Shown here: positions 41,400 to 64,000 of the stretch, piece after piece | Position numbering within the stretch: position 1 is the stretch's first letter | Layout of the letters: every line of letters starts with the position of its first letter | Origin: Acidobacteriota bacterium | GTDB taxonomy: Bacteria; Acidobacteriota; Thermoanaerobaculia; Multivoradales; JBCCEF01 | Assembly: GCA_039028635.1 (NCBI GenBank) | Contig: JBCCHV010000010.1 | Location: 62,001 to 126,000, forward strand | Length of the DNA: 64,000 bases | Direction of reading: 5' to 3' | The notes under the pieces: generated by a model | Databases searched by the model: none | Told to the model about the DNA's origin: nothing | The model's input: only the letters and a program-made list of their open reading frames with translations | Made by a program: the position numbers and the translations under genes

Positions 41400-41805
41400 C
41401 CTGGTGCTACCTCCGGGTTGGGCCCCATGCATGAAAAGCGGGCCGGCCCCGAAGAGCCCTCCGGTCGCCGACCCGACGACACAACTGGTTGTATGCATAG
41501 AGGTACTGCGGGCTCACCGGAAGGTTTAGTGACGCATGAGATTATTTGCACAAAACAGTTTTACTGCAAACAAAGAGATCCCTTAAGGGCGCTCAAGACC
41601 GATCCGGGAGCCGCAGAAAAGTGAGGTTGGGGGTGGGGAGAGGGCTCGGACCGGAAAGACGAGAGCCCCGACTCCGCCGATGCCGTCACGGCTCGACGCA
41701 AACCTCCCAGGATCGGCGACTCCGAGGAGCAGTACCGGCCTCACTCCCGGGTTGCGCCGGGCTCTTGCACCGCTGAGGCGATTTTGCTAAGTTCTCGATC
41801 CCTGT
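41400..41805. other. Intergenic region between giant gene copy 1 and tRNA-Glu
   Basis: About 405 bases with no gene. An AT-rich patch at 41530-41590 (including TTTTACTGCAAACAAAG) probably holds the promoter for the leftward giant gene. The right end carries the tRNA promoter. Confidence 0.55.
41765..41793 (+). promoter_or_regulatory. Promoter of tRNA-Glu
   Basis: TTGCAC (41765-41770) and TAAGTT (41788-41793) with a 17-base spacer place the start about 6-8 bases before the mature tRNA at 41806. Confidence 0.6.
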
Positions 41806-46401: not shown

Positions 46402-46486
46402 ACTTGAATCTATGCTTAATGCAACCGACTTGCAGGAGCATCCTGCGTGCGAGACAGACGAAGAACTACATGAAAGTGGACCCTCG

Positions 46487-47731
<1,245 letters not shown>

Positions 47732-47804: not shown

Positions 47805-50240
47805 TCACTCGGCCTGCAGCACCTCCGCCGGGTCGGCACCGATGGCGCGGAGGGCCGGTCCGAGGGCGGCCAGGAGCCCGACGATGGCCAATGTGACGGC
47901 GCCGGCGGCGAAGGCTCCGGGGTCCCAAGGGGCGACACCGAAGAGGACTCCTCGCAGTCCTTGCACCGCGACCAGGGCGGCCAGGGCCCCGGCCGCCACA
48001 CCGACCGCCACCAAAATCAGGGCTTCCCGCAGGACCGCGGTGAGAACGTCGCGGCGGCGGGCGCCGAGGGCCATGCGCACACCGGTTTCGCGCCGCCGCT
48101 GCCGAACCAGGTAGGACATCACGCCAAAGACTCCGGTGGCGGCGAGCACCAGCGCCAGGGCCGAGAAGATGCCGAAGATGGTGCCCGTCAAGCGTTCCCG
48201 CCAAACGCTGTCGAGCACCCGCTGCTCGAGGGTGCGGAAATCCAACACCGGCTGGCCGGAGTCGACGCCGGCGACGACCTCGCGGACCGGTCCGTACAGC
48301 GCCTCGGCGGAGGCCGTGGTGCGAGCGAAGAAGTGTCCCCAGGCTTCGGGACGCTGGCGCAGCGGCCAATAGAGGTCGAAGCCCGGCTCTCCACTGGGGC
48401 CCTCGCGGCGCACGTCCCCGGCCACGCCGACCACCTCTTGCCAAGGCACCTCCTCCGGACTATCGCCCATCACCCGAATCCGCTTGCCCAGTGCCGAATC
48501 CCCCGGCCAAAGGCGCTCCGCCAGGCGTTGACTCACGATCGCCACCGAGGGCGCGTCGGCGTGGTCGCGCCGGTCGAAGGCTCGGCCGGTGACCAGTCGC
48601 ACCCCCGCGACCTCGAAGTATTGATCACTGATCACTTGGTTGAAGGCATAGGGGTTGCTCTGAACCTCGACATCGTCTTGTCCCTCGGCCCGCACCAAGG
48701 AGCGGTCGACCCGTTCGATCCCGGTCAACGGAGGATTCGAGTTGAAGGCCGAACCCTGGACGCCGGGCAAGCCGAGCAATCCCTCGAGCACCTCGCGCTG
48801 AAACCTCTCGGCATCCTCGTCCGCGTAGGTCCAGGGAAGGGCGACTTTGAAGCTCGCCACGCCTTCCGTGCGGACACCGGAATCGACCGCCATCAGAGCG
48901 CGGAAGGTTCTCACCACCAGCCCCGCGGCGACCAGGAGCACGAGACAGAGAGCGACTTCCGAGACCACCAGAGCGCGGCGCGCCAACGTTTGACGACGGC
49001 CGGCGCTGCCGCCGCGACCGCCCTCCTTGAGAGCGTCGTGGAGGCGAGCCGAGGACACCCTCAGGGCCGGTACCAGCGACGCACCGAGACCCGCCACGAG
49101 GCTCAGCACGGCCGCCGCGATCAGCGCTCGCCCGTCGAGGGAGAGGTTCATCCACAAAGGCAAACGGTCGGCCAGAGCCAACCGCAGCAGGTTCAAGGCG
49201 GGCACGGCGGCGGCGAGCCCGACGACTCCGCCCACCGCCGCCAGCACCAGCCCCTCGCCGAGCACTTGAGCGGCCAGGCGCCGGCGGCCGGCACCCAAGG
49301 CCGCGCGCACCGCCATCTCACGATCGCGCGAGAGGGCCACGCCGAGGAGCAGGTTGGCGACGTTCACGCAGGCGATCAAGAGCACCGCCACAGTGGCGCC
49401 GAAGAGCAGAAACAGATAGGGCCGCACCGGACCCAGGAAGCGCTCCCGCAGCGGGCTGAGCTGCAACCCGACGCCGCGGTTGGTGTCGGGGTACTCCTGG
49501 GTCAGCCTTTGCCCCAAAGCGACGATCCCCTGGCGCGCCTCTTCGACCCCGACTCCGGAGGCCAAGCGGGCGACCGCCACCACCTGACGGGCATTGCGGT
49601 CTTCGATGTTCGGGAAGAAGCGACTGATGAAGATCGACCGGTAGATGGCGGTGTCTTCCGGAAACTCGAAGCCTTCGGGCAGGACCCCGTAGATCGTGTA
49701 TGACGGCGTGTAGGTCGGCGAGGCGTCGAGGGCGACGGTGGTGCCGACGACATCCGGGCGACCCCCGAACTTGCGCTTCCAGACGCGATGGCCGAGGAGG
49801 ATTCCGAAGTTGCGCTCACGGTCGAAGCTCTCCGGCCAGGGTTCGCCGTAGAGGAGATCGATCCCCAGCACCGAAATCAGATCGTGGGTCATCAGGATCG
49901 CCGGTAGCTTCTCTGCCTCGCCTTGCCCCGAGAGCGTGTAGGAGCTGTCCGGCAGGAAGGCCGCCACCTGTTGGAAAAGATCCCGCCGCTCCTCGAGGTC
50001 GGCGACCTCGCGCATCGCCAGCGGCCCCGCCTCGCCACCGCGGACCGCCTCCACCACCACCAGTCGATCGGGTTCGGCAAAGGGTAGAGGACGAAGGAGG
50101 ATCGCGTCGATGGCGCTGAACACCGCTGCGTTGGCGCCGATGCCGAGAGCGAGGGTGAACACGATCAGAAGCGCCGCCCCAGGGCGCCGCCGGTATGGCC
50201 TTACCAAGGCTCCGAGCCAGGTGAAGAATCGTACGATCAT
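47805..50240 (-). CDS. ADOP-type MacB/FtsX permease
   Basis: 811 residues, the typical length of acidobacterial duplicated orphan permeases. Membrane helix 1 (AALLIVFTLALGIGANAAVF) and LRPLPFAEPDRLVVV are signature features. The first periplasmic domain is followed by the helix block with ACVNVANLLLGVALSRDREM. A second periplasmic domain containing GRAFDRRDHADAPSVAIV leads to the last block, GVFGVMSYLVRQRRRETGVR. No ATPase gene is adjacent, which is normal for ADOPs. The start lies 4 bases inside a 16-codon upstream reading frame. Confidence 0.92.
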   Translation of the reverse strand: MIVRFFTWLGALVRPYRRRPGAALLIVFTLALGIGANAAVFSAIDAILLRPLPFAEPDRLVVVEAVRGGEAGPLAMREVADLEERRDLFQQVAAFLPDSSYTLSGQGEAEKLPAILMTHDLISVLGIDLLYGEPWPESFDRERNFGILLGHRVWKRKFGGRPDVVGTTVALDASPTYTPSYTIYGVLPEGFEFPEDTAIYRSIFISRFFPNIEDRNARQVVAVARLASGVGVEEARQGIVALGQRLTQEYPDTNRGVGLQLSPLRERFLGPVRPYLFLLFGATVAVLLIACVNVANLLLGVALSRDREMAVRAALGAGRRRLAAQVLGEGLVLAAVGGVVGLAAAVPALNLLRLALADRLPLWMNLSLDGRALIAAAVLSLVAGLGASLVPALRVSSARLHDALKEGGRGGSAGRRQTLARRALVVSEVALCLVLLVAAGLVVRTFRALMAVDSGVRTEGVASFKVALPWTYADEDAERFQREVLEGLLGLPGVQGSAFNSNPPLTGIERVDRSLVRAEGQDDVEVQSNPYAFNQVISDQYFEVAGVRLVTGRAFDRRDHADAPSVAIVSQRLAERLWPGDSALGKRIRVMGDSPEEVPWQEVVGVAGDVRREGPSGEPGFDLYWPLRQRPEAWGHFFARTTASAEALYGPVREVVAGVDSGQPVLDFRTLEQRVLDSVWRERLTGTIFGIFSALALVLAATGVFGVMSYLVRQRRRETGVRMALGARRRDVLTAVLREALILVAVGVAAGALAALVAVQGLRGVLFGVAPWDPGAFAAGAVTLAIVGLLAALGPALRAIGADPAEVLQAE

Positions 50241-50287
50241 CGGTCGACCTCGACTCCTTCGAATTGATAAACTTGCATATCAGTCAT
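50237..50287 (-). CDS. Possible 16-residue leader peptide before the ADOP gene
   Basis: An ATG at 50287 opens MTDMQVYQFEGVEVDR and stops in TGA overlapping the ADOP start as ATGA. The ribosome-site-like GAAGGAG and GAGG of the ADOP gene lie inside it. It could couple translation, or be chance. There is no clear ribosome site of its own. Confidence 0.3.
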   Translation of the reverse strand: MTDMQVYQFEGVEVDR

Positions 50288-50350
50288 GGAACGATTGTCG
50301 ATCCCCAATTCCGCCGCGGCAGAGGTTCTGCGCGCCCGCGAGACCACCCG

Positions 50351-51157
50351 GTGAGCACCCTGCCCGCTGCCGGATTCGAACAGGTCGACGCCGCGGCGCG
50401 ACCGCACGGTCTCGCCGCCTATCTCGAGCTGGTCAATGAGCTGCCCGCCGTGCGCGCCTACCGCGAGCGGATGCAGCAGCAGCTCGATTTGCCCACCGGC
50501 GCTCGTGTGCTCGACGTCGGCTGCGGTACAGGCGCAGAAAGTGCCCGCCTCGCGACCCACGGATTGCGGACGATCGGAATGGACCTCAGCATCGGCCTGC
50601 TCGCGGCCGCGCGGAGCCGTGGCGGCGCGAAGCCCGACGGTCCCGCTCTGTCGGCAGGAGATGCCTTGGAGCTGCCGTTCTCTGACGCGTCCTTCGACGG
50701 CTGCCGAACGGAACGAGTGCTGCAGCACGTCGCCGACCCGGCCCGAGCCGTCGCCGAGCTGGTCCGCGTCTGCCGCCGCGGCGGCCGGGTGGCGATCAGC
50801 GAACCGGACTGGGGCACGCTGGCCATCGACCTCGACGACCAGGGGCTGACGAGGAAAGTGCTGGCGGCGGCCTGCGACCTGGTGCCTCAAGGCTGGATCG
50901 GTCGCCGATTGCCGGCGCTCATGCGCTCGGCCGGACTGGCGGAGGTGACCACCGAGGCTCATACCCTGGTGGTCGAGGGCTACGCCAGCGCCGATGCCCT
51001 GTTCGGCATCGCCAGCGCGCCGCTGCGAGCCCTCGAGGCGGACCACCTGACGCCGGAGGAGGTGGCGCGCTGGCTGACCGCTCTCGAGCGCCGGGAACAG
51101 CGCGGCCCCTTGGTCGCGTCGCTGACCGGCTTCACGGTCACCGGGCGGGTTCTCTAG
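50351..51157 (+). CDS. SAM-dependent class I methyltransferase
   Basis: 268 residues if started at the GTG at 50351; an upstream in-frame ATG at 50264 would add 29 residues that look unstructured. Motif I VLDVGCGTGAES, motif II GMDLSIGLLAAAR, DALELPFSDASFDGC and RVLQHVADPARAVAELVRV are typical of UbiE/Methyltransf_11 enzymes. The substrate is unknown. It converges on the siderophore-uptake operon, 53 bases away, and is divergent from the ADOP gene; no functional link is evident. Confidence 0.88.
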   Translation: MSTLPAAGFEQVDAAARPHGLAAYLELVNELPAVRAYRERMQQQLDLPTGARVLDVGCGTGAESARLATHGLRTIGMDLSIGLLAAARSRGGAKPDGPALSAGDALELPFSDASFDGCRTERVLQHVADPARAVAELVRVCRRGGRVAISEPDWGTLAIDLDDQGLTRKVLAAACDLVPQGWIGRRLPALMRSAGLAEVTTEAHTLVVEGYASADALFGIASAPLRALEADHLTPEEVARWLTALERREQRGPLVASLTGFTVTGRVL

Positions 51158-51210
51158 CCCGACCTTCTCACCCGCCTTCGGCAGCGCCGGCCTGTGCGAC
51201 CGCCTGGCCT

Positions 51211-52254
51211 TCATCGCTCGCGATCTCCTTCCGCAGCCAACGCCGCGAGCACGACCACCAGCTCGGAAAGGGTCGAGCCCTCGCGCTCCTCGCCAACGCC
51301 GTGGAGCTTCCAGCGGCGGACCTCGTCGTCGCCCTCGACCTCGACCCGCCGGTCGGCCTCGGCACCATCCAACCTCGCCTGATAGCCGAGGCGCTCGACG
51401 GCCCGCGCCGTCCAGGTGGCCAGGACACCCTCGCCGGCGACGGCGATCGAGTCGCGTTGCTCGGCGTCGAGGCGAAAGTTGCCGCTGGCGCGATCGAAGG
51501 TCAAGCCCTCGCTGGCGAAGGTGGACGCGAAGGCACCCTGCAGCACCAGCTCCTCCGGCACGCCGGAGGCGAAGGCGCCGCCCTTGGCGAGCAGCCAAAC
51601 CCGATCGGCAGTGCGCAGAGAGAGCTCCAGGTCATGGCTGGAGACCAGAACTGCGGTGCCTTCTCGGCGCGCCAGCTCGCGCAGCAAGCGCATGGCTTCG
51701 ACCCGCCGTGGCAGATCGAGGAAGGCGGTGATCTCGTCGAGCACGAGCACTGCCGGCTCCTGCGCCAAGGCACGGGCGATCATCACCTTCTGGCGCTCAC
51801 CGTCGGAGAGCTCGGCAACACTGCGCTCCGCGAGCTCTTCGGCACCCGCCGAACGCAGGGCGCGATCGACCGCCGCGTGATCGCGCGCCGAGAGGCGGCC
51901 GTGCCAGGGCGTGAAGGGATAGCGCCCGAGCTCGACCACCGCCCGCGCCGTGAGCACTCCGACGGCCACCCGGTCGGTGAGGACGACGGCGAGCCGGCGA
52001 GCCCGGACGGAAGGAGGGAGATCGGCGAGGGCTTTGCCCTCCAGCTCCACCCTTCCGGCGAGAGGAGCCTGCATGCCGGTCAGCGAGCGCATCAGGGTCG
52101 ACTTGCCCGCGCCATTGGGACCGAGCAGACAGACCAGCTCGCCGCGCCGCAGCTCGAGATCGAGCGGGCCGGCGATGACCGCCGATTCGCGTCCACGACT
52201 GCGATAGCCGACCGCCAGCTCTCGGGCGACGAGGGTCACGTCCGACCCGCTCAT
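51211..52254 (-). CDS. FecE-like iron-siderophore ABC ATPase with C-terminal extension
   Basis: 347 residues from the ATG at 52254. The first ~250 residues are a standard FecE/BtuD-type ATPase: Walker A GPNGAGKST, LSDGERQKVMIARAL, Walker B VLVLDEITAFLD, and SSHD at the H-loop. About 95 extra residues follow (from EGLTFDRASGNFRLDAEQ on). They form a beta-alpha piece with GVLATWTARAVERLGYQARL that is not part of ordinary FecE and may be a regulatory domain. The start overlaps the permease stop as ATGA. It is the last gene of the metallophore operon. Confidence 0.9.
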   Translation of the reverse strand: MSGSDVTLVARELAVGYRSRGRESAVIAGPLDLELRRGELVCLLGPNGAGKSTLMRSLTGMQAPLAGRVELEGKALADLPPSVRARRLAVVLTDRVAVGVLTARAVVELGRYPFTPWHGRLSARDHAAVDRALRSAGAEELAERSVAELSDGERQKVMIARALAQEPAVLVLDEITAFLDLPRRVEAMRLLRELARREGTAVLVSSHDLELSLRTADRVWLLAKGGAFASGVPEELVLQGAFASTFASEGLTFDRASGNFRLDAEQRDSIAVAGEGVLATWTARAVERLGYQARLDGAEADRRVEVEGDDEVRRWKLHGVGEEREGSTLSELVVVLAALAAEGDRER

Positions 52255-53339
52255 AGCTCGAGGCTCCTGAGATGGCGCCGCCGAAGAACCAGCCACAGAA
52301 CGACCGGCGCACCGATCATCGAGGTCACCGTGTTGAGGTGCAGGAACTGCCGCGCCCACGGCAGGTGAGTGACCAGATCGGCGCCGAGGGCGAGGGTCGC
52401 CCCGACGAGCACCACCGCCGGCATCAGCACCCGGTGGTCGGAGGTGTTGAACAGCCCGCGGCAGAGATGCGGCACCGCCAGGCCGAGGAAGGCGATCGGG
52501 CCGCAAAACGCCGTCACCGAGCCGGTGAGCACCGCCGTCATGGCGAGGCAGAGCAGGCGCGCCCGCCCCACCCCGACGCCCAGACTGGTGGCGTAGCGCT
52601 CGCCGAGCAACAGCGCATTGAGCGGCTTGACCATGGCGAGCGCCCCCACCAGGCCGACCGCGGAAACCGGCATCAGCACTCCGATCTGATCCCAGGTCAC
52701 CGACGCGAAGCTACCGTCGAGCCAGTTGAGCATCACCCGCACGTCGGTCTCGTCGATGAAGTGAAACAGCAGGCTGAGCAAGCTCTTGGCGATCGCCGCC
52801 ATCATGATGCCGGCGACCAGCAGCGTCACCGTGCTCACCCGCCGCGCCACCACCGCCACCAGGGCGAGCATCAAGCATGCTCCCACCGTCGCGCCGAAGG
52901 CCAGGGACAGGTCGCCCAGGATGTGGAACGGGCCGAGACTCGCCAGCCCGGCGGACGACGCCGCCCACACGATCAATCCCACCCCGACCGAGGCGCCGTC
53001 GAGCACGCCGAGGACCCAGGGGCCGGCGAGCGGGTTGCGGAACAGGGTCTGGAGCAGCAGTCCGCAGACCGCCAGGGAGGCACCGCCGAAGATCGCCGTG
53101 ACCGCCCGCGGAAGTCGAAATTCCCACACGATCTGCGCCCAGCTGGCGCGCTCCGGCGTCTCGCCGGCGAGAATGCTCACCACGTCGCCCAGGGGAATCC
53201 GCACCGAGCCGATGGTGACCTCCAACAGGAAGAGCGCCACCAGTCCGACGACCAGACCGAGGAAGATGACCGCGTTCAAGCCGATGCGGCGGCTGGCCGG
53301 GCGCGCCGGAGCGCGGTCCGCAGTCAGCGTCTCGCTCAC
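52251..53339 (-). CDS. FecCD-type siderophore ABC permease
   Basis: 362 residues with about ten membrane segments. Family marks are FRLPRAVTAIFGGASLAVCG, LFRNPLAGPWVLGV with the following GASVG, and VTAFCGPIAFLGLAVPHLCR. It probably acts as a homodimer, as there is no second permease. The GTG start overlaps the stop of the binding-protein gene (GTGA), and its stop overlaps the ATPase start, showing strict coupling. Confidence 0.92.
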   Translation of the reverse strand: MSETLTADRAPARPASRRIGLNAVIFLGLVVGLVALFLLEVTIGSVRIPLGDVVSILAGETPERASWAQIVWEFRLPRAVTAIFGGASLAVCGLLLQTLFRNPLAGPWVLGVLDGASVGVGLIVWAASSAGLASLGPFHILGDLSLAFGATVGACLMLALVAVVARRVSTVTLLVAGIMMAAIAKSLLSLLFHFIDETDVRVMLNWLDGSFASVTWDQIGVLMPVSAVGLVGALAMVKPLNALLLGERYATSLGVGVGRARLLCLAMTAVLTGSVTAFCGPIAFLGLAVPHLCRGLFNTSDHRVLMPAVVLVGATLALGADLVTHLPWARQFLHLNTVTSMIGAPVVLWLVLRRRHLRSLEL

Positions 53340-54601
53340 GCCTCACCTCCCCTGGGCTCGAGCTGCGAGGGCGCATCGCCAAGCCGCCGGAAGAACACCA
53401 GCCGGTGATCGGGCAGGAGCTCGGGATGGAAGATACGGATCATGTCGGCGAGAACGAGATCGGGCTCGATCAGCATCCGATCATAGAACGGCGCCCGTCC
53501 CGGCTCCGGAGCATCGGCGTCGAAGCTGTAAAGCTCGCCCTGCTGGACGACCGGTAGGGCGGCGAGTCGCTGCTCCTGCGCCAACGCGTCGGAGAGGTTG
53601 CGGATGTTGGGCGGAACCCAGATCCAATGGTCGGCCTCGGCAGCGCGCTCGAAGGCCGAGATCAGCGGCACCTCGAACCAGTTGAGCGGCGTGTCTTCCT
53701 GCCAGAAGTACTCGCCGCCGGCGTCCGCGATCTGGCGCGCGAAAACATTGTCGGCACCGAAGACGTTCCAGGCGTCCTTGTCGAACCAATCGGTGACCAC
53801 CACCGGCCGATGCCGGATGTCTTCAACTTCGGCAGCGAGTCGCTGATAGCGTTCTTCGATCCCGGCCAGGAGCTCGTTCGCGGCGCGCTCCCGATTGAAG
53901 AAGAGCGCCAGCCAGGCGACCCACTCGCTGGCGGCGAGGGGCGTCGCCTCGAGGTGCTGGGCGTCGAGCACCACCGGTGCCCCGACCGCTTCGAGCAAAT
54001 GCTCGACCTCGTAATCGGCATAGGCGGTGAAGTTATCGACCACCAGACCGGCTTCGAGATCCAACAGACGCTCGACGTCGGTGTGGTGGAAGCGGCCGAT
54101 CTCGACCAGCTCCCCGGACTCGACGCGGGCGAGCAGCGACGGAGTGGTCAAACGCTGGATGGTCCCGAGGCCCGTCAGATGGTCCGCTAGACCGAGCGCA
54201 TCGACCGCTCCAGCCCACCCCGGGGGGGTGACCGCGAAGCGGGCGACGGGCACCTCGATCACCGTCCCCTGCGATGCCTCCGGTGCTGGCGTGCCGCACT
54301 GCACCAACACCCACCGGCGGACGCGCTCGGGATCGATCCGCGGCCGCAGCGTCACCACCTTGTAGTGGCCCCGGTACTCGACCTCGAGCTGCTCGGTGTG
54401 CCGGAACCGGACCTTTTCGGGGAAGTAGTCGGCAGCCGGATCGAAGTCCTCCACACAGCCATCGGCCAGGTTGGTGGTGCCATCGAAGGGTACCGCCGGC
54501 CAGACCGAGTGGGAGGGTATGGGAACAGCAGGGGCACAGCCGCCGGCCACCGCCATCACGACGGCAGCCAGCGACAGGGCCCGAACTAAAGACCCTTCCA
54601 C
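53336..54601 (-). CDS. Siderophore-binding lipoprotein (FecB/BtuF-like)
   Basis: 421 residues, longer than usual (about 320). The signal peptide ends in the lipobox VAGGC. About 90 residues before the binding fold (with DYFPEKVRFRHTEQLEVEYR) are a beta-rich head rarely seen in FecB. The Peripla_BP_2 domain follows from about 105 to 400 (GLADHLTGLGTIQRL, DLEAGLVVDNFTAYADYEVE, FGADNVFARQIADAGGEYFW). It receives the ferric chelate from the TonB receptor and passes it to the permease. The start is a GTG at 54601, 5 bases after the receptor stop. Confidence 0.9.
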   Translation of the reverse strand: MEGSLVRALSLAAVVMAVAGGCAPAVPIPSHSVWPAVPFDGTTNLADGCVEDFDPAADYFPEKVRFRHTEQLEVEYRGHYKVVTLRPRIDPERVRRWVLVQCGTPAPEASQGTVIEVPVARFAVTPPGWAGAVDALGLADHLTGLGTIQRLTTPSLLARVESGELVEIGRFHHTDVERLLDLEAGLVVDNFTAYADYEVEHLLEAVGAPVVLDAQHLEATPLAASEWVAWLALFFNRERAANELLAGIEERYQRLAAEVEDIRHRPVVVTDWFDKDAWNVFGADNVFARQIADAGGEYFWQEDTPLNWFEVPLISAFERAAEADHWIWVPPNIRNLSDALAQEQRLAALPVVQQGELYSFDADAPEPGRAPFYDRMLIEPDLVLADMIRIFHPELLPDHRLVFFRRLGDAPSQLEPRGGEA

Positions 54602-54606
54602 GACAA

Positions 54607-56952
54607 CTAGAAGCGGCCGCGCAGCGTCAGCATCACCGTTCGCGGCGCTCCGTAGTAGTTCGCGAGCGGCCCCTGACCGGCCTCGACATAGCGCTCATCG
54701 GTGAGATTTCGGCCGTTGAGCGCCAGCCCGTAGGAGCGGCCGCCAATCTCGGTCCGCAGCTCGACCGCGGCATGCACCAGCAGATAGTCGTCGAGGGTGA
54801 AGGGATCGAGGGCCAGCTCTCCGGCGCGGTCCCCGACGTAGAAGGCGCCGGCGCCCAGGCTCACACCGCCCCACCCGGTTTGCGGCAGATCGTAGTTCAG
54901 CCACAGGCTCGCCGTCTCTTCCGGCACGTTGACGAAGCGCGAGCCGACCGGACGCGAAGCGTCCTCGGTGATCTCCGACTCCCACAAGTAGCTGGCGCTG
55001 GCCACTGCGCGCAACCGGTCGCTCAGCCGGCCGGTGACGTCGATCTCGACGCCCTGGCTGCTCTGCTCGCCGATCGCCACCAGCAGCCGCGGATCGAAGG
55101 GATCACGGGTCGCGACATCGCTGCGCACCAGATCGAAAACGGCGCCGTTGACCGACAGGCGACCGTCCTTGGGCAGCCACTTGAAGCCCGCCTCGATCTG
55201 CTCGCCGCGTTCCGGGTCGAGGTAGTTGCCGAGCAGATCGGTGCGGCCGTTGGGCTCGAAGGACCGGGCGTAGCCGGCGAAGAGCGACAGCTCCGGCCGC
55301 GCCATCACGACCAGACCGAAGCGGGGGCTCACCGCCTCGTCCTCCATGGCGGGATCGAAGTCGGCGCCGCGCTCGAAGCGGAAGCTGGTGTCCAGGGTGT
55401 CCCAGCGCACGCCGGCGAGCGCCTTGACCCGCGGGCCGAAGTCGATCTGATCCTGCACGTAGACGCCGGTGAAGTCCTGCTCCTGTTCGAAGAAGAAGGG
55501 GCCGTCTTGATCCGGCGGCGCCGCCGGGAACGTCGGGTCGAGGACGTCGAGGGCCACGGAGCCACTGCTGAAGAAGCTGTCACCGCCGAAGTTGTCCCGC
55601 GCCACCTCGACCCCGAACAGCAGCGTATGGCGAACCGAGCCGGTGGCGGTATCCGCCAGCAACTCGAGCCGGCCGGTGTCCGTGCCGACGACATCGAAGT
55701 CATTCAAGTAGACCGCCCGCTGCGCGCTGCGGCCGTCCGGCGCGATATCGGTGAGGTAGTCGGCGAGGGTGAACTCTTCGTACTCCACCGTCTGAAGGTC
55801 GGCGCGCAGCTCGAAGGTGTCGCCGAGCAGGCGTTCGAAGCGGACGCCCAGAGTGCGGTTGCGGCGGTCGAACTCGGTCCAAGGCGCCGCCAGGTTGCGC
55901 TCCACCGGCAGCTCGAGCAGGCCGTCACCGGTGAGCAGCACACCGGTGGCGAAGACCGGCAGCGACTGCTCGTACTGCTCACCTTCGATGATCAAGCGCG
56001 TCGAGCCGTCCGGCTCCCACGACACCACCGGCGCGATCAGGGTTCGCTCGCCCTCGACCCGGTCGCGCCAGCTCTCGAAGTCTTGATGGGAGGCATTGAG
56101 CCGGTAGCGCCATGCGGACCCCTCGCCGAAGGGCCCACTGAGATCCACTCGTGCGCCGTAGTGGTCGTAGCTGCCGAGCTCGAGAGCGGCACTGCGGGCG
56201 ACCTGCGGCAGCGGCTTGGCGGTGACCACATTGATCACTCCGCCCAGGGAGCCGGAGCCGTAGAGCACCGCCGCCGGTCCCTTCAACACCTCCAGCCGAT
56301 CGACGTTGGCGAGGGGGGTCAGCCCGACGTTGCTGGCTCGGCGGTAGCCGTTGCGCAGCACCGGCTGCACCGAGAAACCGCGCAGGTAGAAACCGTCCTG
56401 GGTTCCCTGGAAACCGGTGTCCGGCACCGCGCCGCTGACGTTGCGCAGCATGTCGCCGACGGTCAGGGCACCCTGGCTCTCGCCGATCTCGATCGGCAGC
56501 ACCTCGATCGACTGGGGGACCTCGAGAAGGGGAGTTTCGGTGCGGGTTGCGGTGACCGCTTGCAGAGAGCGATAGGGAACCGCGTCGCGGACGGTGATCT
56601 GCTCGGCCACCGCCACCGACAGCTCGACCTCGAGCTCGCTGGCCTGCGCTCCGTGACTCAGCTTCTGCCCAGTCGGCGAGAAGCCGCTGAGCTCGAACTC
56701 GAGGCGATGGTCGCCTTTCGGAACGGCGTCGAACCGGAAGGCGCCCCGCCGATCGGTGCTCGCCGTGCGCTCGCCGCCGTCGGCGAGCCGTAGGGTCACC
56801 CAAACTCCGGGGAGGGCGCCACCGGTGGCGTCGACGACGTTACCGGCAACGGGCATGGGCTCCTCGGCGACGACCGATAGCCCGAGACCAGCGATCAGGG
56901 TGAAGAACAATAGGAAGGTCATCAGACGGGAAGGGTTACTTCTAGACATCAT
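54607..56952 (-). CDS. TonB-dependent siderophore receptor
   Basis: About 781 residues; of several ATGs, the one at 56952 has GGAG 6 bases upstream. After the signal peptide comes a carboxypeptidase-regulatory-like domain (about 36-115). The plug (about 140-250) contains DRLEVLKGPAAVLYGSGSLG and GVINVVTAKP. The 22-strand barrel ends with TLRGRF and a terminal phenylalanine. The sequence type is that of TIGR01783-like siderophore receptors. It is encoded directly between the acylase and the binding lipoprotein, so it most likely imports the product of this operon. Confidence 0.93.
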   Translation of the reverse strand: MMSRSNPSRLMTFLLFFTLIAGLGLSVVAEEPMPVAGNVVDATGGALPGVWVTLRLADGGERTASTDRRGAFRFDAVPKGDHRLEFELSGFSPTGQKLSHGAQASELEVELSVAVAEQITVRDAVPYRSLQAVTATRTETPLLEVPQSIEVLPIEIGESQGALTVGDMLRNVSGAVPDTGFQGTQDGFYLRGFSVQPVLRNGYRRASNVGLTPLANVDRLEVLKGPAAVLYGSGSLGGVINVVTAKPLPQVARSAALELGSYDHYGARVDLSGPFGEGSAWRYRLNASHQDFESWRDRVEGERTLIAPVVSWEPDGSTRLIIEGEQYEQSLPVFATGVLLTGDGLLELPVERNLAAPWTEFDRRNRTLGVRFERLLGDTFELRADLQTVEYEEFTLADYLTDIAPDGRSAQRAVYLNDFDVVGTDTGRLELLADTATGSVRHTLLFGVEVARDNFGGDSFFSSGSVALDVLDPTFPAAPPDQDGPFFFEQEQDFTGVYVQDQIDFGPRVKALAGVRWDTLDTSFRFERGADFDPAMEDEAVSPRFGLVVMARPELSLFAGYARSFEPNGRTDLLGNYLDPERGEQIEAGFKWLPKDGRLSVNGAVFDLVRSDVATRDPFDPRLLVAIGEQSSQGVEIDVTGRLSDRLRAVASASYLWESEITEDASRPVGSRFVNVPEETASLWLNYDLPQTGWGGVSLGAGAFYVGDRAGELALDPFTLDDYLLVHAAVELRTEIGGRSYGLALNGRNLTDERYVEAGQGPLANYYGAPRTVMLTLRGRF

Positions 56953-56964
56953 GGACATCTCCGC

Positions 56965-59460
56965 TCAGTTGATGGAAACAGCACCGGCGGACGCCGGCGT
57001 ATTGGAATCGGAGCCGGACGCGGCGCCAGGCCGCGGGGACTCCGCAGGATCAGGGATCAGCTCGATTCGGTGGACCGCCGGCCCCGGCAGCAGGGGCGTT
57101 GGCAGGCCCAGCTCCCAGGTCTCGTGGCCGGCGCCGTAGGACGCCGTTGCCGGGTGGCCGCCGGCGCCGCCGGGCATGTGGAAGAGGCCACGCTCCTCGC
57201 GCCCGGGCGCCACCACGATCCGCAGGGAGGAGCCGAAGGTCGGGTGCTGCACGCGCGGCACGAAGCTGTCGCCGGGCAACTGCCGCGGCGGCAAGTCCAG
57301 CCAGCGCCGCGCCGGCGGCAAGAACTGGCTCAAGGGATGACGCAGCTGGACCGTGTTGCGCCGACCCCAGGTGGCCCCGTCGAGGCCCTGCGGTCCGCGC
57401 GACAGCTCGTCGACGGCCGCTCTCGCGGTGCCCTCGAACAGCGCCTCCCAGCTCTCCCGGCCGGCGGGCACCAGGTGCTCAGGACGCTCGGAAATGACCC
57501 GCCAGAGCGGCAGCTCGTGGCGGGGAATGACCCCGCCGCTGGGAAAGCCCGGGTCCTCGGCGACAACCGGTCCGAGCAGCGAGTCGAGCACCTCGATGGC
57601 GATGCGGCGCCGGAAGTTCCGCACCAGCCGATAGCCGACCGAGTCGATCGCGGCGCGACCTCCCCAGTCGACGACGTGGCGGTGGGCGGCGGCGAGGGCC
57701 GGGTCGTCGGAGGCGGCCAGCGTGTCCGCCAGCAGGGCCTGCCAGCGGTCCAGTCGCCAGGCCCGGTCGTCGAGCATGAGCGCGAGGAGATCTTGCTCCC
57801 CGGCCGGCGACGGGAGGGCTCGCAGGCCGTCGCGGAGCTGGGCGGCTCGGGTGCCCGAGGAGTACCCGCCGTCGCCCAGGCTCGCGAGCCCTTCACCGCT
57901 CAGGTGGCGGTGGTTGGCGCTCCACAAGCGTCCGTCCGGGCCGGGTGCGAGACGCGGCTTGCGGAGCGGCGGCAGAAAGTTCCAAGCGGCCGGCGCCAGC
58001 TGCGCTCCGTCGACCGGAACTTCCGCCGAGGCACGGCTCTCCAGTCGGCCCGCAACGGTCCAGCCGACGGCGCCCGCGGCATCGGCCAGCAGCATGTTGA
58101 GCGCCGGTCCCGCGGCGGCGGCGGCGACGGCGAGACCGGCAGAGACATCATCAGCCTCCTCCAGCCGTCGCCAGTCCAGGCCGGCGGCGCCCGGCGCATG
58201 AGCATCCCAGCGCAGCGCCAGCAGATCGCCCTCGGGACCGGCGTCGAGCAACGGTCCCCAAGAAGTTTCGATCACCTCGACCTCACGGTCGCGGCCACCG
58301 CGCACACGCACCGTCTCGACCACCCTCCGCCAGCGCTGAGGACCGCGGGAGGTGAGATAGCTGTCGGGCTCGTTCCCCGGCTCGAGGCGAACCACATCGG
58401 TGGTGTCGGCGTAGGCGTTGGTCACCCCCCAGGCGAGGCGGCCGTTGCTCCCCACCACCACCAGCGGCAGGCCGGGCAGCGTGGCACCAACGAGCCGCCG
58501 TTCTCCATCGGGTCCATCGGGCCAGTGCAGCGCCAGGCGGTACCAGATGTTGGGCAAGCCGAGGGCGAGATGGACGTCAGCGGCGAGGAGAGCGCGACCG
58601 TCGGCGGTGTGGGAGCCGCCCAGGGCCAGCGCATTGCTGGCCGCGCGCTGGGCGACCTCGAGATCTCTCATGCCGGCATCGGCCGCCTCCGACTCCGCTT
58701 CCGGGCGGACTCCCGGGGGCGCGGTACCGGGTAGCGGCGGCTCCGGAAATCGGCTGCCGTCGAGGGCCGCCGAATCGACCTCGCCGGCGGCGAGCAGGAA
58801 GTCGGCGAGGGGCTCGGCGAGCAAGCTGCGGATACGGCCGCGGCCGCGGTCGAGCCAGCCCTCGGCGTCGTCCAGGTCGAGGTACATCGCGAACACCACC
58901 AGGTAGCTATCCGCCGGCCGCCAGGGCCGCGGCTCGACCCCGAGCAGGGCGTGCTCGAAGGGCGGGGTACCGAGATCGTCGAGACCGGCGGCGACACCGG
59001 CGGCGTACGCTTCGAGCAGCCGTCGCTCCTCGACCGGCGCCCGCTCCCACTGCCGCTCTGCCCGGGCGGCGAAGCGGTGCCGACGGACCGCGACATCGAC
59101 CCATGCCACCGGCGGCCCGAGCACCTCGGCGATCTCTCCGGCGGCCCGCCGGCGCAGGAGGTCCATCTGGAAGAAGCGGTCCTGGGCATGTACGAAACCG
59201 GTGGCGTAGGCGGCGTCCAGGCGGCTCGCGGCTCGGATCGCCGGCACCCCGATGGCGTCCCGATCGATCGTGGCGGGCGCCTTCAGCCCGGGCGCCGACA
59301 CCGCCCCTTCGAGCCGAGGAAGGCCGGAGCGCCAGGCACGAGAACCCCAGATCACGGCAACCGCCGAAACCAGTAGCAAGAGGACGAGGGCCGCCGCCGC
59401 GGCGCGACCGAGAAGGCGCCACCAGCGGCGGCGAGGGCGTTTGGAGGGCGCCGCGTTCAT
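56965..59460 (-). CDS. Penicillin acylase-family hydrolase (PvdQ-like role proposed)
   Basis: 831 residues, with an N-terminal membrane/signal segment (about 18-40) and the Ntn-hydrolase organisation. The alpha-chain part contains RDAIGVPAIRAASRLDAAYA and GFVHAQDRFFQMDLLRRRAA. The autocatalytic site is AASNALALGGSHTADGRA, with Ser275 as the nucleophile starting the beta chain, followed by LLAADVHLALGLPNIWY. Related PvdQ removes the fatty acid from a pyoverdine precursor in the periplasm. Its place between an NRPS module and a siderophore receptor suggests the same step here. The start overlaps the NRPS stop (ATGA). Confidence 0.9.
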   Translation of the reverse strand: MNAAPSKRPRRRWWRLLGRAAAAALVLLLLVSAVAVIWGSRAWRSGLPRLEGAVSAPGLKAPATIDRDAIGVPAIRAASRLDAAYATGFVHAQDRFFQMDLLRRRAAGEIAEVLGPPVAWVDVAVRRHRFAARAERQWERAPVEERRLLEAYAAGVAAGLDDLGTPPFEHALLGVEPRPWRPADSYLVVFAMYLDLDDAEGWLDRGRGRIRSLLAEPLADFLLAAGEVDSAALDGSRFPEPPLPGTAPPGVRPEAESEAADAGMRDLEVAQRAASNALALGGSHTADGRALLAADVHLALGLPNIWYRLALHWPDGPDGERRLVGATLPGLPLVVVGSNGRLAWGVTNAYADTTDVVRLEPGNEPDSYLTSRGPQRWRRVVETVRVRGGRDREVEVIETSWGPLLDAGPEGDLLALRWDAHAPGAAGLDWRRLEEADDVSAGLAVAAAAAGPALNMLLADAAGAVGWTVAGRLESRASAEVPVDGAQLAPAAWNFLPPLRKPRLAPGPDGRLWSANHRHLSGEGLASLGDGGYSSGTRAAQLRDGLRALPSPAGEQDLLALMLDDRAWRLDRWQALLADTLAASDDPALAAAHRHVVDWGGRAAIDSVGYRLVRNFRRRIAIEVLDSLLGPVVAEDPGFPSGGVIPRHELPLWRVISERPEHLVPAGRESWEALFEGTARAAVDELSRGPQGLDGATWGRRNTVQLRHPLSQFLPPARRWLDLPPRQLPGDSFVPRVQHPTFGSSLRIVVAPGREERGLFHMPGGAGGHPATASYGAGHETWELGLPTPLLPGPAVHRIELIPDPAESPRPGAASGSDSNTPASAGAVSIN

Positions 59461-62400
59461 GCTGTCTCCCTTTCTTCCTGCCGCTCGGGAACGATCCGGC
59501 CGAGGGCGGCCAAGAGGCCGTCGAGGGCCGGACCACGGGTGACCTCGTGGTGATCGGCGTCGACAGCGAGAACTTCGAGGGCGTCGAGCGAACGGCGCCA
59601 GGCGTCGACCCCACCGCGAGCCACCATCGGGCCTCGGCGAGCCGCGACCAGCACCGCCGGCGGTCCGGGCGGATCCGCTTTGACGGCCGCCGCCGCTGCC
59701 ACCGACGAGGTGAAGTCGTCACACCAACGTCGGAGCTGTGCCTCTCCACCGACCCCGATCAGATCGGCCGACGACGCCCAGGCGATCAACTCGTCCCAGG
59801 AGCTGAGCCGACTCTCTGGCGGCGGTGCTCCGGCGCTCTCGATCAGGAACTCGACGAACGCCGTGAGGGCGCCCCGCGGCGAAGGCGGGCGGAGCATTCC
59901 CGGCGGCGGCGCATCGAGCAGCACCAGGGCCCGCACCGGCGATCCGGCCGCGATCCGCCGGCGCGCCGTTTCGAAGGCGAGCAGGCCGCCGGCGGACCAG
60001 CCACCGAGCAAACAGGGCCCGCCGCCGGCCGCCGCCCGAGCCGCGGCCTCGAGGGCGGTGGCGACCTCCTCGGGACCCGCCGGCGCCGGCCGCAGGGCCC
60101 GCACCGGATGGCGTCCCCGGAGACCCTCGGCGAGGTCGAGATAGCTGGCGGCGCTGCCGCCGGGCGGTGGCACCAGGAGGAGCGGCAGGCCCTCGCCGGG
60201 AGCCAGCTCCACCCAGGGATCGGAGGTTTCTCCGGTGAGCCCGAGCTCGGCAGCCACCGCCGCCGGAGTGGGCGCCGCCAGGACCGTTTCCACGGCTACC
60301 AGCCGACCCTGCAGGGCGCCGATGCGCGCCGCCAGCCGGAATGCCGCGAGAGAGCTGCCGCCGGCCGCGAAGAAGTCGGTGTCGCGCCCGGCAGGCACTC
60401 CGAGGACGTCGCTCCACAGCGCCACCAGCTCCTGCTCGGCGAGGTCGCGCGCCGGTCGAGCGGAGATCTCCGGGGCGGGCAATCGGCCGCGATCGAGCTT
60501 GCCGTTGGCACTCAGGGGCAGCGCTTCGAGGGCGACCCATGCCGCCGGTACGAAAGCCGGCGGCAGGCGCTCACGGAGCCAGGCGCGGAGCACTTCCGGC
60601 TCGGCGCCGGCGCTGACGTAGGCGGTGAGCACGGGCTCGCCACCGACCTCTGGCGCGGCAACGGCGGCCTGCTGCACGCTCGGGTGAGCGAGGAGCGCCG
60701 CCTCCACCTCGCCAGGCTCGATGCGATGGCCTCGCACCTCGAGCTGATGATCGAAGCGGCCGAGAAAGTGAAGTCGGCCGTCGGCGAGATGTCGCACCCG
60801 ATCGCCGGTCCGGTAGAGCCGCGCACCGGGCTCACCGCTCACCGCGTCCGGCATGAACGCCGCGGCCGTCAACCCGGGGCGCCCGAGGTAGCCGCGCGCC
60901 AGCGCCGCCCCGCCGAGGCACAGCTCACCAACGAATCCCGGCGGCACCGGAGCCAACCGGCGATCGAGGACGAAGGTCCGCACGTTCGCGATCGGCCGGC
61001 CCAGCGAGGGTGCCAACCGCCCGGCCGACGGTGCCGCCTCGACGACGCCGGCAGTCGCCGTCACCGTCGCCTCCGTCGGTCCATAGGAGTTGACCAGCAG
61101 CGGGGAAGGCGACGCCGGCCGCAGGCGCAGTCGATCGCCACCGGTCCAGAGACCGGTGGCGGGTAGACGGCGATCGCGCACCAGCTCCTCGGCGACGGCC
61201 GTCGGTACCCAGCACCAGGCCGGCTCCTCGGCGGCCAGGAACTCCGCCAGTCGACGCGGGTCGGTGCGGGCCTCCTCGGCCGGCAGGACCAAAGTGGCGC
61301 CGGCGGCGATGGCGGTCCAGATCTCCCAGGCGGTGACGTCGAAGGTGGTGCCGGCGACGTGAGTCAGCCGATCGCCGGGGGCGATGCGCCGGTGCGAGAT
61401 CTGCCAGTCGACCAGCTCGGCGAGGCCGCCGTGGGTCACCATCACCCCTTTCGGCCGGCCGGTCGAGCCCGAGGTGTAGAAGAGGGCGGCGGCCTGTCCC
61501 GGGGGCGGCTGGGAGAACGACGCGGGAAGCGGCAAATCTGGGAGCCGATCCGGCAGGGGCTCGGCGTCCCGGCGCCGGGGCGGATCGAGGCGATGGGGCG
61601 GATCGAAGCGATGGGCTGCTTCCGCCGGTACCGTGCTGCCGGCGGCGGCGATCCACGCCACGGCGCCGGCGTCGGCCAGCAGGGCGACGATCCGCCGCCG
61701 CGGGTGCGCCGGGTCGAGGGGCAGGCAGACGCCGCCGGCGAGGAGGACGCCGAGCCATGACGCCACCAGAGGAGCGCCGCGCTCCAGGTACAGACCGACA
61801 CAGGCCTCGGGTCCGACGCCGGCGCCTCGCAGGCGACGCGCCAGGTCGGCGGCCGCGGCGGTGAGCTCGCCGTAGGTCCAAACCTCCCCGCCGGCCTCGA
61901 TCACCGCCGGCCGCTGAGGATCGCGCCGGGCCGCGGCCACCGCGCGCCGATGGACCGCTGCGATAGTGGTGGAAGGACGGAAGCCGCCGCTCCACTCGTG
62001 GAGGACGGCGTGGCGCTCCGCGGGCGCCAGCAGCGCCAGCTCCGTCCACCGCCGCCCGGGCTCGGTGAGTGCGCTCTGGATCAGGGTGCGCAGAGCGCGC
62101 AGCAACCGCTCGACGGTGGTCGTCTCGAAGCACGCCCGGTCGAAATCGACGGAGAGCTCCGGGCGCGCCCCCTCGAGGGCCACTCCCAGGGCCAGATCGA
62201 AGCGCGCCCGACGCTCGGCGGCGATCGGCTCGACCACCAGACGGCGCGCCGAGGCAGCGGGCTCGGGGCCGCCGCCGGTCAAGGTCACGTCCATCAGCGG
62301 CGGAGCACCGGAGCCTCCGAGCCCCTCGATCAAGAGATCCGCCGGCAGGTCGGCGCGGCCTTCGGCGGCCACCACCACCCGGCCGGCCGCGGCGATCACG

Positions 62401-63506
62401 CCGGCGGCGTCGAGATTGAAAGGTAGCGCCACCCGCAGCGGCACGAGGTCCGCCAGCATGCCGACGACGCCCGCGAGCCCGGGAAAGGGACGCCCGGCGA
62501 CGGCCGTGCCGATCACCGCCTCGCTGACACCCCCCATCCGCGCCAGCCAGGCCGCCACGAATCCCAACGCCGCCGCAAAGGGGGTCGCCCCCGAGCGCCG
62601 CGCCAAGGCGGCCAAGGCCGGTCCTTCCGGCAGCGGCACGATCAGCTCTTCGGCGAGTCCTCGATCCCCGACCGGCGGCCGGTCGAAGGGGAGCTCCGGA
62701 GGCCGCGCGCCTTCGAAATCCCGGACCCAGGCCCGCACCCGGTCGGCGACCTGCCGGCTGCCCGCGTGGCGCTCCTGCCAGTACGCGAAGTCGGCGTACT
62801 GGAGGGCCACCGCGGGGAGCTCCGCCGGCTGTCCCCGCTCGCCCGCCGTCAATGCCTCCTCGAGCTCCCTCAGCAAGAGGTCGAGGGAGAGGCCGTCTCC
62901 GGAGATATGGTGCAGGGTCCAAACCAGAACCGGATCCCTGCCGCGGCGCTGGAAGAGCACCTCCCGCCGCGGTGGACGCGATTCGAGATCGAAAGGCCGG
63001 GTCGCCACCGCCGCCGCCGCCCGCCGCAACTCACCGTCCACGGCGTCCGGCGGCAAGGCCGAGAGATCGCAGCACGGCAACCGACGACGGCGGGCCGAGA
63101 GCACGACCTGCCGCGGTCCGTCGGCCGCTTCGCGGTAGACGGTGCGCAAGGCTTCATGGCGCTCGAGCACCAGCTCGACGGCCGCCTCCACCGTCGCCGG
63201 CGACGGCGCCCCGCGCAGCCGCAGGGCGGTGGCCAGGTGGTAAGCGGCCGAGTCGGGATGGCGTCGGTGGTGGAGCCAGAGGCGGCGCTGTGCGGCGGTC
63301 AACGGCGCCTCCGGGCCGCGCGCTGTCGGAGCCGGACCGGCGGGCGGAGCGAGCAGAGCCAGCAGGTCCGCCCGGGCGTCGCGCAGGCGCTCCTGCAGCT
63401 CGGCGCTCACCGCACCCCGCGGCGCGCGCAGGCGCAGGCGACCGTCCTCGGCGATGAGGTGGGCATCGAGGCGATTCAGCTCGGCGAGGAGCTCGACGGC
63501 GGTCAA
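59457..63506 (-). CDS. Non-ribosomal peptide synthetase, terminal module (docking-C-A-PCP-TE)
   Basis: 1349 residues from a TTG at 63506 that has GAGGTGG four bases upstream and overlaps the preceding stop (TTGA). Domains: TubC-type docking helices (1-52), condensation (about 65-500, active HHISGDG at 199-205), and adenylation (about 515-990, with LFYTSGSTGRPKG and NSYGPTEA). Then come the peptidyl carrier (about 1000-1065, Ser in GGSSLAAF) and thioesterase (about 1080-1345, GWSAGG with a late His in DADHHEV). By eye the substrate-pocket residues read D-V-W-C-W-G-S-V-T; I cannot name the amino acid. As the last module it adds one residue and releases the product. Confidence 0.93.
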   Translation of the reverse strand: MTAVELLAELNRLDAHLIAEDGRLRLRAPRGAVSAELQERLRDARADLLALLAPPAGPAPTARGPEAPLTAAQRRLWLHHRRHPDSAAYHLATALRLRGAPSPATVEAAVELVLERHEALRTVYREAADGPRQVVLSARRRRLPCCDLSALPPDAVDGELRRAAAAVATRPFDLESRPPRREVLFQRRGRDPVLVWTLHHISGDGLSLDLLLRELEEALTAGERGQPAELPAVALQYADFAYWQERHAGSRQVADRVRAWVRDFEGARPPELPFDRPPVGDRGLAEELIVPLPEGPALAALARRSGATPFAAALGFVAAWLARMGGVSEAVIGTAVAGRPFPGLAGVVGMLADLVPLRVALPFNLDAAGVIAAAGRVVVAAEGRADLPADLLIEGLGGSGAPPLMDVTLTGGGPEPAASARRLVVEPIAAERRARFDLALGVALEGARPELSVDFDRACFETTTVERLLRALRTLIQSALTEPGRRWTELALLAPAERHAVLHEWSGGFRPSTTIAAVHRRAVAAARRDPQRPAVIEAGGEVWTYGELTAAAADLARRLRGAGVGPEACVGLYLERGAPLVASWLGVLLAGGVCLPLDPAHPRRRIVALLADAGAVAWIAAAGSTVPAEAAHRFDPPHRLDPPRRRDAEPLPDRLPDLPLPASFSQPPPGQAAALFYTSGSTGRPKGVMVTHGGLAELVDWQISHRRIAPGDRLTHVAGTTFDVTAWEIWTAIAAGATLVLPAEEARTDPRRLAEFLAAEEPAWCWVPTAVAEELVRDRRLPATGLWTGGDRLRLRPASPSPLLVNSYGPTEATVTATAGVVEAAPSAGRLAPSLGRPIANVRTFVLDRRLAPVPPGFVGELCLGGAALARGYLGRPGLTAAAFMPDAVSGEPGARLYRTGDRVRHLADGRLHFLGRFDHQLEVRGHRIEPGEVEAALLAHPSVQQAAVAAPEVGGEPVLTAYVSAGAEPEVLRAWLRERLPPAFVPAAWVALEALPLSANGKLDRGRLPAPEISARPARDLAEQELVALWSDVLGVPAGRDTDFFAAGGSSLAAFRLAARIGALQGRLVAVETVLAAPTPAAVAAELGLTGETSDPWVELAPGEGLPLLLVPPPGGSAASYLDLAEGLRGRHPVRALRPAPAGPEEVATALEAAARAAAGGGPCLLGGWSAGGLLAFETARRRIAAGSPVRALVLLDAPPPGMLRPPSPRGALTAFVEFLIESAGAPPPESRLSSWDELIAWASSADLIGVGGEAQLRRWCDDFTSSVAAAAAVKADPPGPPAVLVAARRGPMVARGGVDAWRRSLDALEVLAVDADHHEVTRGPALDGLLAALGRIVPERQEERETA

Positions 63507-64000
63507 ATTTCCACCTCTTCCCAGTCCTCTTCTTGGGCGCCGGCGGGCACTGATTCCTCGCGGCGGCGGTCAGCGGCGCGGGCGATGGCGCGGACCGTGG
63601 GGCTCGCGAGCAGCTCACCCAGAGTCAAGTCCACGCCCATCCGCTCGCGCAGCAAAGCCGCCGCCCGGCCGGCGAGCAGAGAATGGCCGCCGAGCCGGAA
63701 GAAGTCGTCCTCGGCGGCAACCTCGGCCACCCCCAACAGCTCCGAGAACACCTCCGCTACCTGTCGCTCGCTGTCGTTCGCCGGAGGGGTCCGCCGCGGC
63801 GCCACCGCCGGCTCCTCGGGTCGCTCGTCGGCGGGCGCGTCAAGCCGGGCGCGCCAGGGAACGACCGAGTCATCGCCAACCGAGAAGAGCTGTGCGGTAC
63901 CGCTCTCGAAGCGGTCGTGACGCCCGGCGGGGTCGTCGGTCATCGCCGCCAGCACTCGCGGGTAGAGAGCCGCCAGCGCCTCGGCCTGCAGGGAATCGAG
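63503..64000 (-). CDS. NRPS-like protein ending in a carrier domain, 5' end outside the window
   Basis: 166 codons are visible, open to the right edge. The last ~90 residues are a peptidyl carrier domain (QVAEVFSELLGVAEVAAEDD, then FFRLGGHSLLAGR with the phosphopantetheine serine). The ~75 residues before it (with FESGTAQLFSVGDDSVVPW) do not show a domain I recognise. A short acidic tail (GAQEEDWEEVEI) may dock to the TubC-type domain of the next synthetase. The stop overlaps the start of that gene by four bases, fixing the order of the assembly line. Confidence 0.88.
   Translation of the reverse strand, partial: LDSLQAEALAALYPRVLAAMTDDPAGRHDRFESGTAQLFSVGDDSVVPWRARLDAPADERPEEPAVAPRRTPPANDSERQVAEVFSELLGVAEVAAEDDFFRLGGHSLLAGRAAALLRERMGVDLTLGELLASPTVRAIARAADRRREESVPAGAQEEDWEEVEI

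Follow-up and report, generated by a model that had tools for sequence, protein, structure and literature searches.

An Acidobacteriota NRPS operon with an embedded Ntn acylase as a candidate for pyoverdine-like siderophore maturation

Introduction

Does an NRPS operon of an Acidobacteriota bacterium that carries its own Ntn acylase, followed by uptake genes, make a siderophore that is matured as pyoverdine is? In the pyoverdine pathway PvdL provides the FAAL starter, PvdQ acts as periplasmic acylase, FpvA serves uptake and PvdRT-OpmQ efflux, and the purpose of acylating and then deacylating the precursors is an open question (PMC6206403). The locus lies in a stretch of 64,000 nucleotides, here called the window, which corresponds to C10:62001-126000 of a 6.28 Mb draft genome in 117 contigs (G000; GCA_039028635.1). 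A sequence-only reading of the window had proposed a siderophore operon with a built-in PvdQ-like acylase acting on an acylated precursor. Here we put the probability at roughly 60% that the locus is the 3′ half of a nonribosomal β-hydroxy-amino-acid siderophore operon whose product matures like pyoverdine; the siderophore part of this reading is very likely.

Results

A compact operon at a contig end

Six gene types follow one another on the minus strand of window 51211-64000 in the order NRPS, acylase, TonB receptor, binding lipoprotein, permease and ATPase (Table 1), as the sequence-only reading had described. Their junctions are tight: from the NRPS genes to the ATPase they measure −4 bases (NRPS/NRPS), −4 (NRPS/acylase), then +6, +5, −4 and −7, so that overlaps are of 4 or 7 bases and gaps of 5-6. 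The ATPase most likely starts at the ATG at 52257, not at the TTG at 52506. The window holds just the last NRPS module and the carrier protein of the preceding one, and its contig ends at 127002, ~1 kb past the right edge.

The siderophore assignment held up. The receptor scores above the curated siderophore-receptor cut-off (TIGR01783, 223.5 bits), and C and AMP-binding domains, one of the NRP-metallophore criteria, lie within the single CDS of the terminal NRPS. Additionally, PF00593, PF01032 and PF01497 are all present in the cluster, and transporter families of these types serve as siderophore markers (PMC12971057). The terminal A domain has the code ~DV(W)CWGSVTK, with position 278 hand-read from the PT motif.

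Table 1. Features of the operon and its conserved left flank (window coordinates).
Feature	Position	Strand	Basis
Penultimate NRPS gene, 3′ end (carrier protein)	63503..64000	-	PF00550; runs on to contig end C10:127002; sister homologue P0001
Terminal NRPS, TubC docking-C-A-T-thioesterase	59457..63506	-	Pfam domains, A code
Ntn acylase, penicillin amidase family, N-terminal hydrophobic anchor, Ser275 nucleophile	56965..59460	-	PF01804 430.8 bits
TonB-dependent siderophore receptor	54607..56958	-	TIGR01783 279.3 bits; PF00593, PF07715
Periplasmic binding lipoprotein (Peripla_BP_2), lipobox AGGC	53336..54601	-	PF01497; sequence
FecCD-type permease	52251..53339	-	PF01032 241.8 bits
FecE/FhuC-type ABC ATPase, start corrected	51211..52257	-	PF00005; Met = residue 84 of TTG ORF
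SAM methyltransferase within conserved block, opposite strand	50264..51157	+	PF08241 78.7 bits; 72% aa identity to sister in frame
MacB/FtsX-type permease, left end of conserved block	47805..50240	-	PF12704, PF02687; 84% aa identity to sister

The same operon was found in a same-genus genome (G001, contig C16) with 84% DNA identity over 17 kb. Gene order is kept there, the junctions are near-identical and the biosynthetic genes retain their −4 overlaps. In each of the six genes measured, the differences between window and sister cluster at the third codon position, indicating that the operon consists of working genes and not of chance ORFs. To the left, the conserved block continues past the methyltransferase through the MacB/FtsX gene to ~47805, where DNA synteny stops. 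The next best receptor within the class is 34% identical.

Two neighbouring frames were rejected as operon members. The minus-strand ORF at 50237-51598 is an antisense artefact, a GC-rich spurious frame over the plus-strand methyltransferase, and a CobW/G3E metal-chaperone GTPase gene at 46412-47731 (+) lies outside the block conserved in the sister; this gene adjoins the siderophore block and could hint at zinc or cobalt handling. Farther left, a 1652-aa protein with HYDIN/DUF1573-type Ig domains is encoded at 36540-41498 (−).

Predicted chelating chemistry upstream, read in the sister genome

The sequence-only reading had suggested following the assembly line to the right. The contig stops 1 kb on, but in the sister the line could be read 6.9 kb further upstream than the window's contig reaches; a search of the G000 assembly for this stretch found nothing. 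When 396 genomes drawn from the phylum were searched for a more contiguous homologue, the sister alone gave a TauD match better than 1e-100.

In the sister the order is A-T-C, TauD, C*-A-T-C-T and TubC-C-A-T-TE, followed by the acylase, with 4-base overlaps throughout. The A domain behind C* (protein P0001) has the code DSALIAEVWK, in which position 278 was set by aligning the PS motif, automatic alignments having given L once and A once. This code is a His signature that accepts β-hydroxylation (PMC12283262), and β-OH-His is among the chelators that define NRP metallophores, occurring in <2% of regions (PMC12971057). The DSALIAEVWK module next to TauD suggests that the operon's line has chelating chemistry of the His/β-OH-His kind. 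Marks of such chemistry (TauD, C*, DSALIAEVWK), whose absence upstream the sequence-only reading had named as counting against it, are present in the sister.

The C* domain lacks HHxxxDG and reads LASAAGDAA instead. A TauD gene directly followed by a C*-like domain recurs eight times on other contigs from the order, and the module after TauD in Leptolyngbya (see below) likewise lacks HHxxxDG; a search of the plasmids for the C* domain itself gave no match. An interface domain was reportedly described by Reitz et al. 2019, and from its position and lost motif we infer that C* is such a domain. In P0001 (L121:3505-8388) a C-T unit that lacks an adenylation domain follows His, and in P0008 (L126:14794-19995) another such unit follows Thr; going by this domain order, the carriers of these units must receive their residue either in trans or from the A domain before them.

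An acylase outside the PvdQ family

Ser275 of the acylase aligns with the first β-chain residue of solved acylases, PvdQ among them, and S275, N276, H297 (β-chain position 23) and N516 are invariant across nine relatives. We take β-chain positions 1 and 23 to be catalytic, as known from PvdQ and penicillin acylase. A hydrophobic stretch at the N-terminus (residues 18-38) suggests a membrane-anchored periplasmic enzyme.

The term 'PvdQ-like' applies to the proposed role but not to the family. Against the PvdQ model (NF051460) the acylase scores 49.8 bits where the cut-off is 950, the match covering residues 245-406 only, and a quick tree groups it with the sister's enzyme as a long branch within the general family of penicillin acylases. 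By sequence and by an AlphaFold model, the latter modest (pLDDT 65.8) with fold matches of modest quality, the solved structures nearest to it are those of D-succinylase and cephalosporin acylases (glutaryl-7-ACA acylase), ahead of PvdQ. With these neighbours, acyl preference cannot be read from kinship. Grouping with penicillin acylases had been set as a point against the sequence-only reading, and this grouping was indeed found; close relatives located within NRPS operons of the same class (below) indicate that family does not argue against the proposed role. The enzyme probably does the same job as PvdQ and was probably recruited independently of it.

A candidate lipid-starter line on another contig

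A fatty-acid-loading starter, as an acylated precursor would need, was found in both genomes, though on a contig separate from the operon (C23 in G000, C12 in G001). This FAAL line has the order FAAL-ACP-C-A(Ser)-T-C-A(Ser), T-C, TauD, C*-A(Asp)-T-C-A(Asp)-T-C-A(Asp)-T, TubC-C-A(Thr)-T-C-T and runs off its contig end without a thioesterase; the motifs were partly hand-read, and the Asp code DLTKVGEVGK could also stand for Asn. The 3′ end of the FAAL line and the 5′ end of the operon's line are the only unpaired NRPS ends in both genomes, besides C45, an orphan fragment of 4.3 kb in G001. The other NRPS lines examined in G001 are internal to their contigs, with C18 and C19 finishing in TE, and contigs C95 and C101 of G000 jointly match the C19 line. 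The GC contents of the FAAL line and the operon's line agree (0.728 and 0.717), against 0.682 in another FAAL line.

Since its loose end is the sole other unpaired one (C45 aside), we infer, from elimination combined with analogy to contiguous clusters on plasmids, that the FAAL line is the 5′ half of the operon's assembly line, short of proof. The two can be joined only if about one module or more of sequence is missing, and no overlap between the contig ends was found. A direct C12-C16 join in G001 was rejected, as C23 of G000 runs 2.7 kb beyond the C12 break into sequence absent from the start of C16. The acylated precursor of the sequence-only reading is thus likely without being proven, its sole plausible lipid-starter line being on another contig, and that the lipid is supplied by this line appears a reasonably good bet.

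The analogy comes from complete plasmids of Leptolyngbya boryana, Methylomagnum and Methylocystis, each carrying FAAL, TauD, NRPS and acylase genes. The cyanochelin-like cluster of L. boryana pLBX (NZ_AP014640) has the gene order FAAL-NRPS, PKS, NRPS, TauD, C*-A(Asp), TE, TEII, acylase (Penicil_amidase) and TonB, with a TauD 57-59% identical to that of the sister; it differs in its PKS modules and in having Asp where the Acidobacteriota line has His. L. boryana NIES-2135 has been listed as a possible cyanochelin-like producer, with no mention of the acylase (PMC12628792). With 252.7 bits on the PvdQ model, the Leptolyngbya acylase (WP_017291705.1) belongs to the PvdQ type, and it aligns to the window's over 231 residues only, at 25.5% identity, a distance indicating that one layout is served by separate branches of the family. 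Methylomagnum ishizawai pRS11DPr1 carries acylase, SidA, GNAT, MbtH, hydrolase, TauD and FAAL-NRPS genes, the SidA/PvdA hydroxylase being additional, and Methylocystis bryophila pDSM21852-1 carries FAAL-NRPS, TauD and NRPS genes with, ~11 kb on, a cyclic-peptide exporter gene overlapping that of the acylase. No TonB match was seen in the stretches read of these last two plasmids. The pathway had been called unfamiliar in this lineage; NRP-metallophore regions are indeed few in Acidobacteriota (9 of 836 genomes; PMC12971057), and the same layout recurs in cyanobacteria and methanotrophs.

The strongest alternative is that the operon makes a siderophore while the FAAL line makes a separate lipopeptide, the operon's own line starting without a fatty acid and the acylase removing another N-acyl cap (e.g. 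a dicarboxylic acyl) or cutting an internal amide. Consistent with this, the two lines are not physically joined, lines with FAAL and TauD but no uptake genes nearby occur commonly in the order (four other contigs, with no acylase nearby either), and the nearest solved acylase relatives act as D-succinylase and glutaryl-7-ACA acylase. However, fragment C45 aside, neither genome has any loose NRPS end besides these two, and a FAAL is present in each of the three contiguous plasmid clusters that combine TauD with an acylase, so that we regard this alternative as unlikely, if still worth serious weight.

On G006:C24, one of the four contigs just mentioned, a TauD gene lies directly upstream of a FAAL line ending in DSALIAEVWK-T-TE, which reads as a lipid-started β-OH-His peptide, and no uptake genes were matched within the 60 kb read. 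G000 itself has a second giant NRPS that starts with a FAAL, at C18:9485-84200 (open frame ~17,400 aa), with a Lys/Orn N-hydroxylase gene just upstream; the best-matching Lys/Orn N-hydroxylase in G001 stands alone on C5.

NRPS-linked acylases in relatives

Acylases 38-45% identical to that of the window lie inside NRPS operons on six further contigs of the same order: G020:C404, where the gene shares a 4-base overlap with the NRPS, G021:C10, G044:C233, G033:C148, G013:C31 and G044:C562. These Thermoanaerobaculia operons share with the window an acylase inside an NRPS operon, in several of them beside NRPS-TE and MacB genes (all together on G021:C10 and G044:C233), whereas the adenylation codes at the first five of these loci suggest other peptides (Ser, Pro, Cys, Thr). 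No siderophore uptake genes were matched at these five. Judged from gene content, periplasmic deacylation may be a common last step for non-siderophore NRPS peptides in Thermoanaerobaculia.

It could be argued that the acylase is a self-protection enzyme, or one that detoxifies lipopeptides or degrades foreign acyl compounds, and is merely located in the operon. The penicillin-acylase family is broad and mostly not NRPS-linked, and the PvdQ-like GdnD, encoded far from its cluster, deacylates glidonins in what has been discussed as detoxification, like Tem25 (PMC10587159). In the window and the sister, however, the acylase gene is translationally coupled, through a 4-base overlap, to the NRPS-TE gene, with the receptor gene next, and this explanation is improbable; that the acylase acts on the operon's own product is likely.

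That the metallophore serves zinc, a lanthanide or another metal instead of iron is more doubtful still: the CobW/G3E family is often zinc- or cobalt-linked and a lanthanide role has been proposed for Acidobacteriota metallophores (PMC10875860), but the CobW gene is just outside the sister-conserved block, the receptor passes the siderophore model, and β-OH-Asp and β-OH-His are hard donors of the type usual in Fe(III) siderophores (PMC12971057).

Discussion

In the pathway that we propose, the NRPS line, probably FAAL-ACP-primed with a fatty acid, would build an acyl-peptide whose iron ligands include β-hydroxy-histidine and probably also β-hydroxy-aspartate. The thioesterase encoded in the window would release this acyl-peptide, which would pass across the inner membrane, and the membrane-anchored Ntn acylase would cut off the N-terminal acyl chain in the periplasm. 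The free siderophore would then leave the cell, possibly via the linked MacB-type permease, and the metal complex would re-enter through the TonB receptor, the binding lipoprotein and the FecCD/ATPase importer. The genes and their domain order, the sister's TauD, C* and His-code module, the acylase nucleophile and the uptake genes can be read directly from sequence, while the fatty-acid start, the acylase's substrate and location, the export route and iron as the metal are predictions.

Acylation followed by deacylation may even be a general, repeatedly evolved strategy for β-hydroxy-amino-acid siderophores, shared by Acidobacteriota, cyanobacteria, methanotrophs and pseudomonads. Each of these groups would then combine a line begun by a FAAL with an Ntn acylase, the acylases together representing two or more distant branches of their family; we advance this tentatively, at somewhat less than even odds. 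If unrelated phyla do combine lipid-primed siderophore assembly with acylases that were recruited separately, the lipid step would have a selectable purpose, possibly membrane tethering or keeping free chelator out of the cytoplasm, and this purpose could be tested in Leptolyngbya boryana or other cultured hosts. A linear prediction that retains the lipid on such a product would then probably be wrong.

The pyoverdine-type trick itself is already known; what differs here is an acylase from outside the PvdQ family in a pyoverdine-like layout. No chromophore enzymes (PvdP/PvdO) were seen in the 13 kb read. Like the pyoverdine system, the locus combines an NRPS siderophore line, probably lipid-started, with an Ntn acylase, TonB uptake and a MacB-type permease. 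Unlike it, the acylase is not of the PvdQ family and sits within the NRPS operon, the predicted ligands are β-OH-His and β-OH-Asp, and the importer is of the FecCD type.
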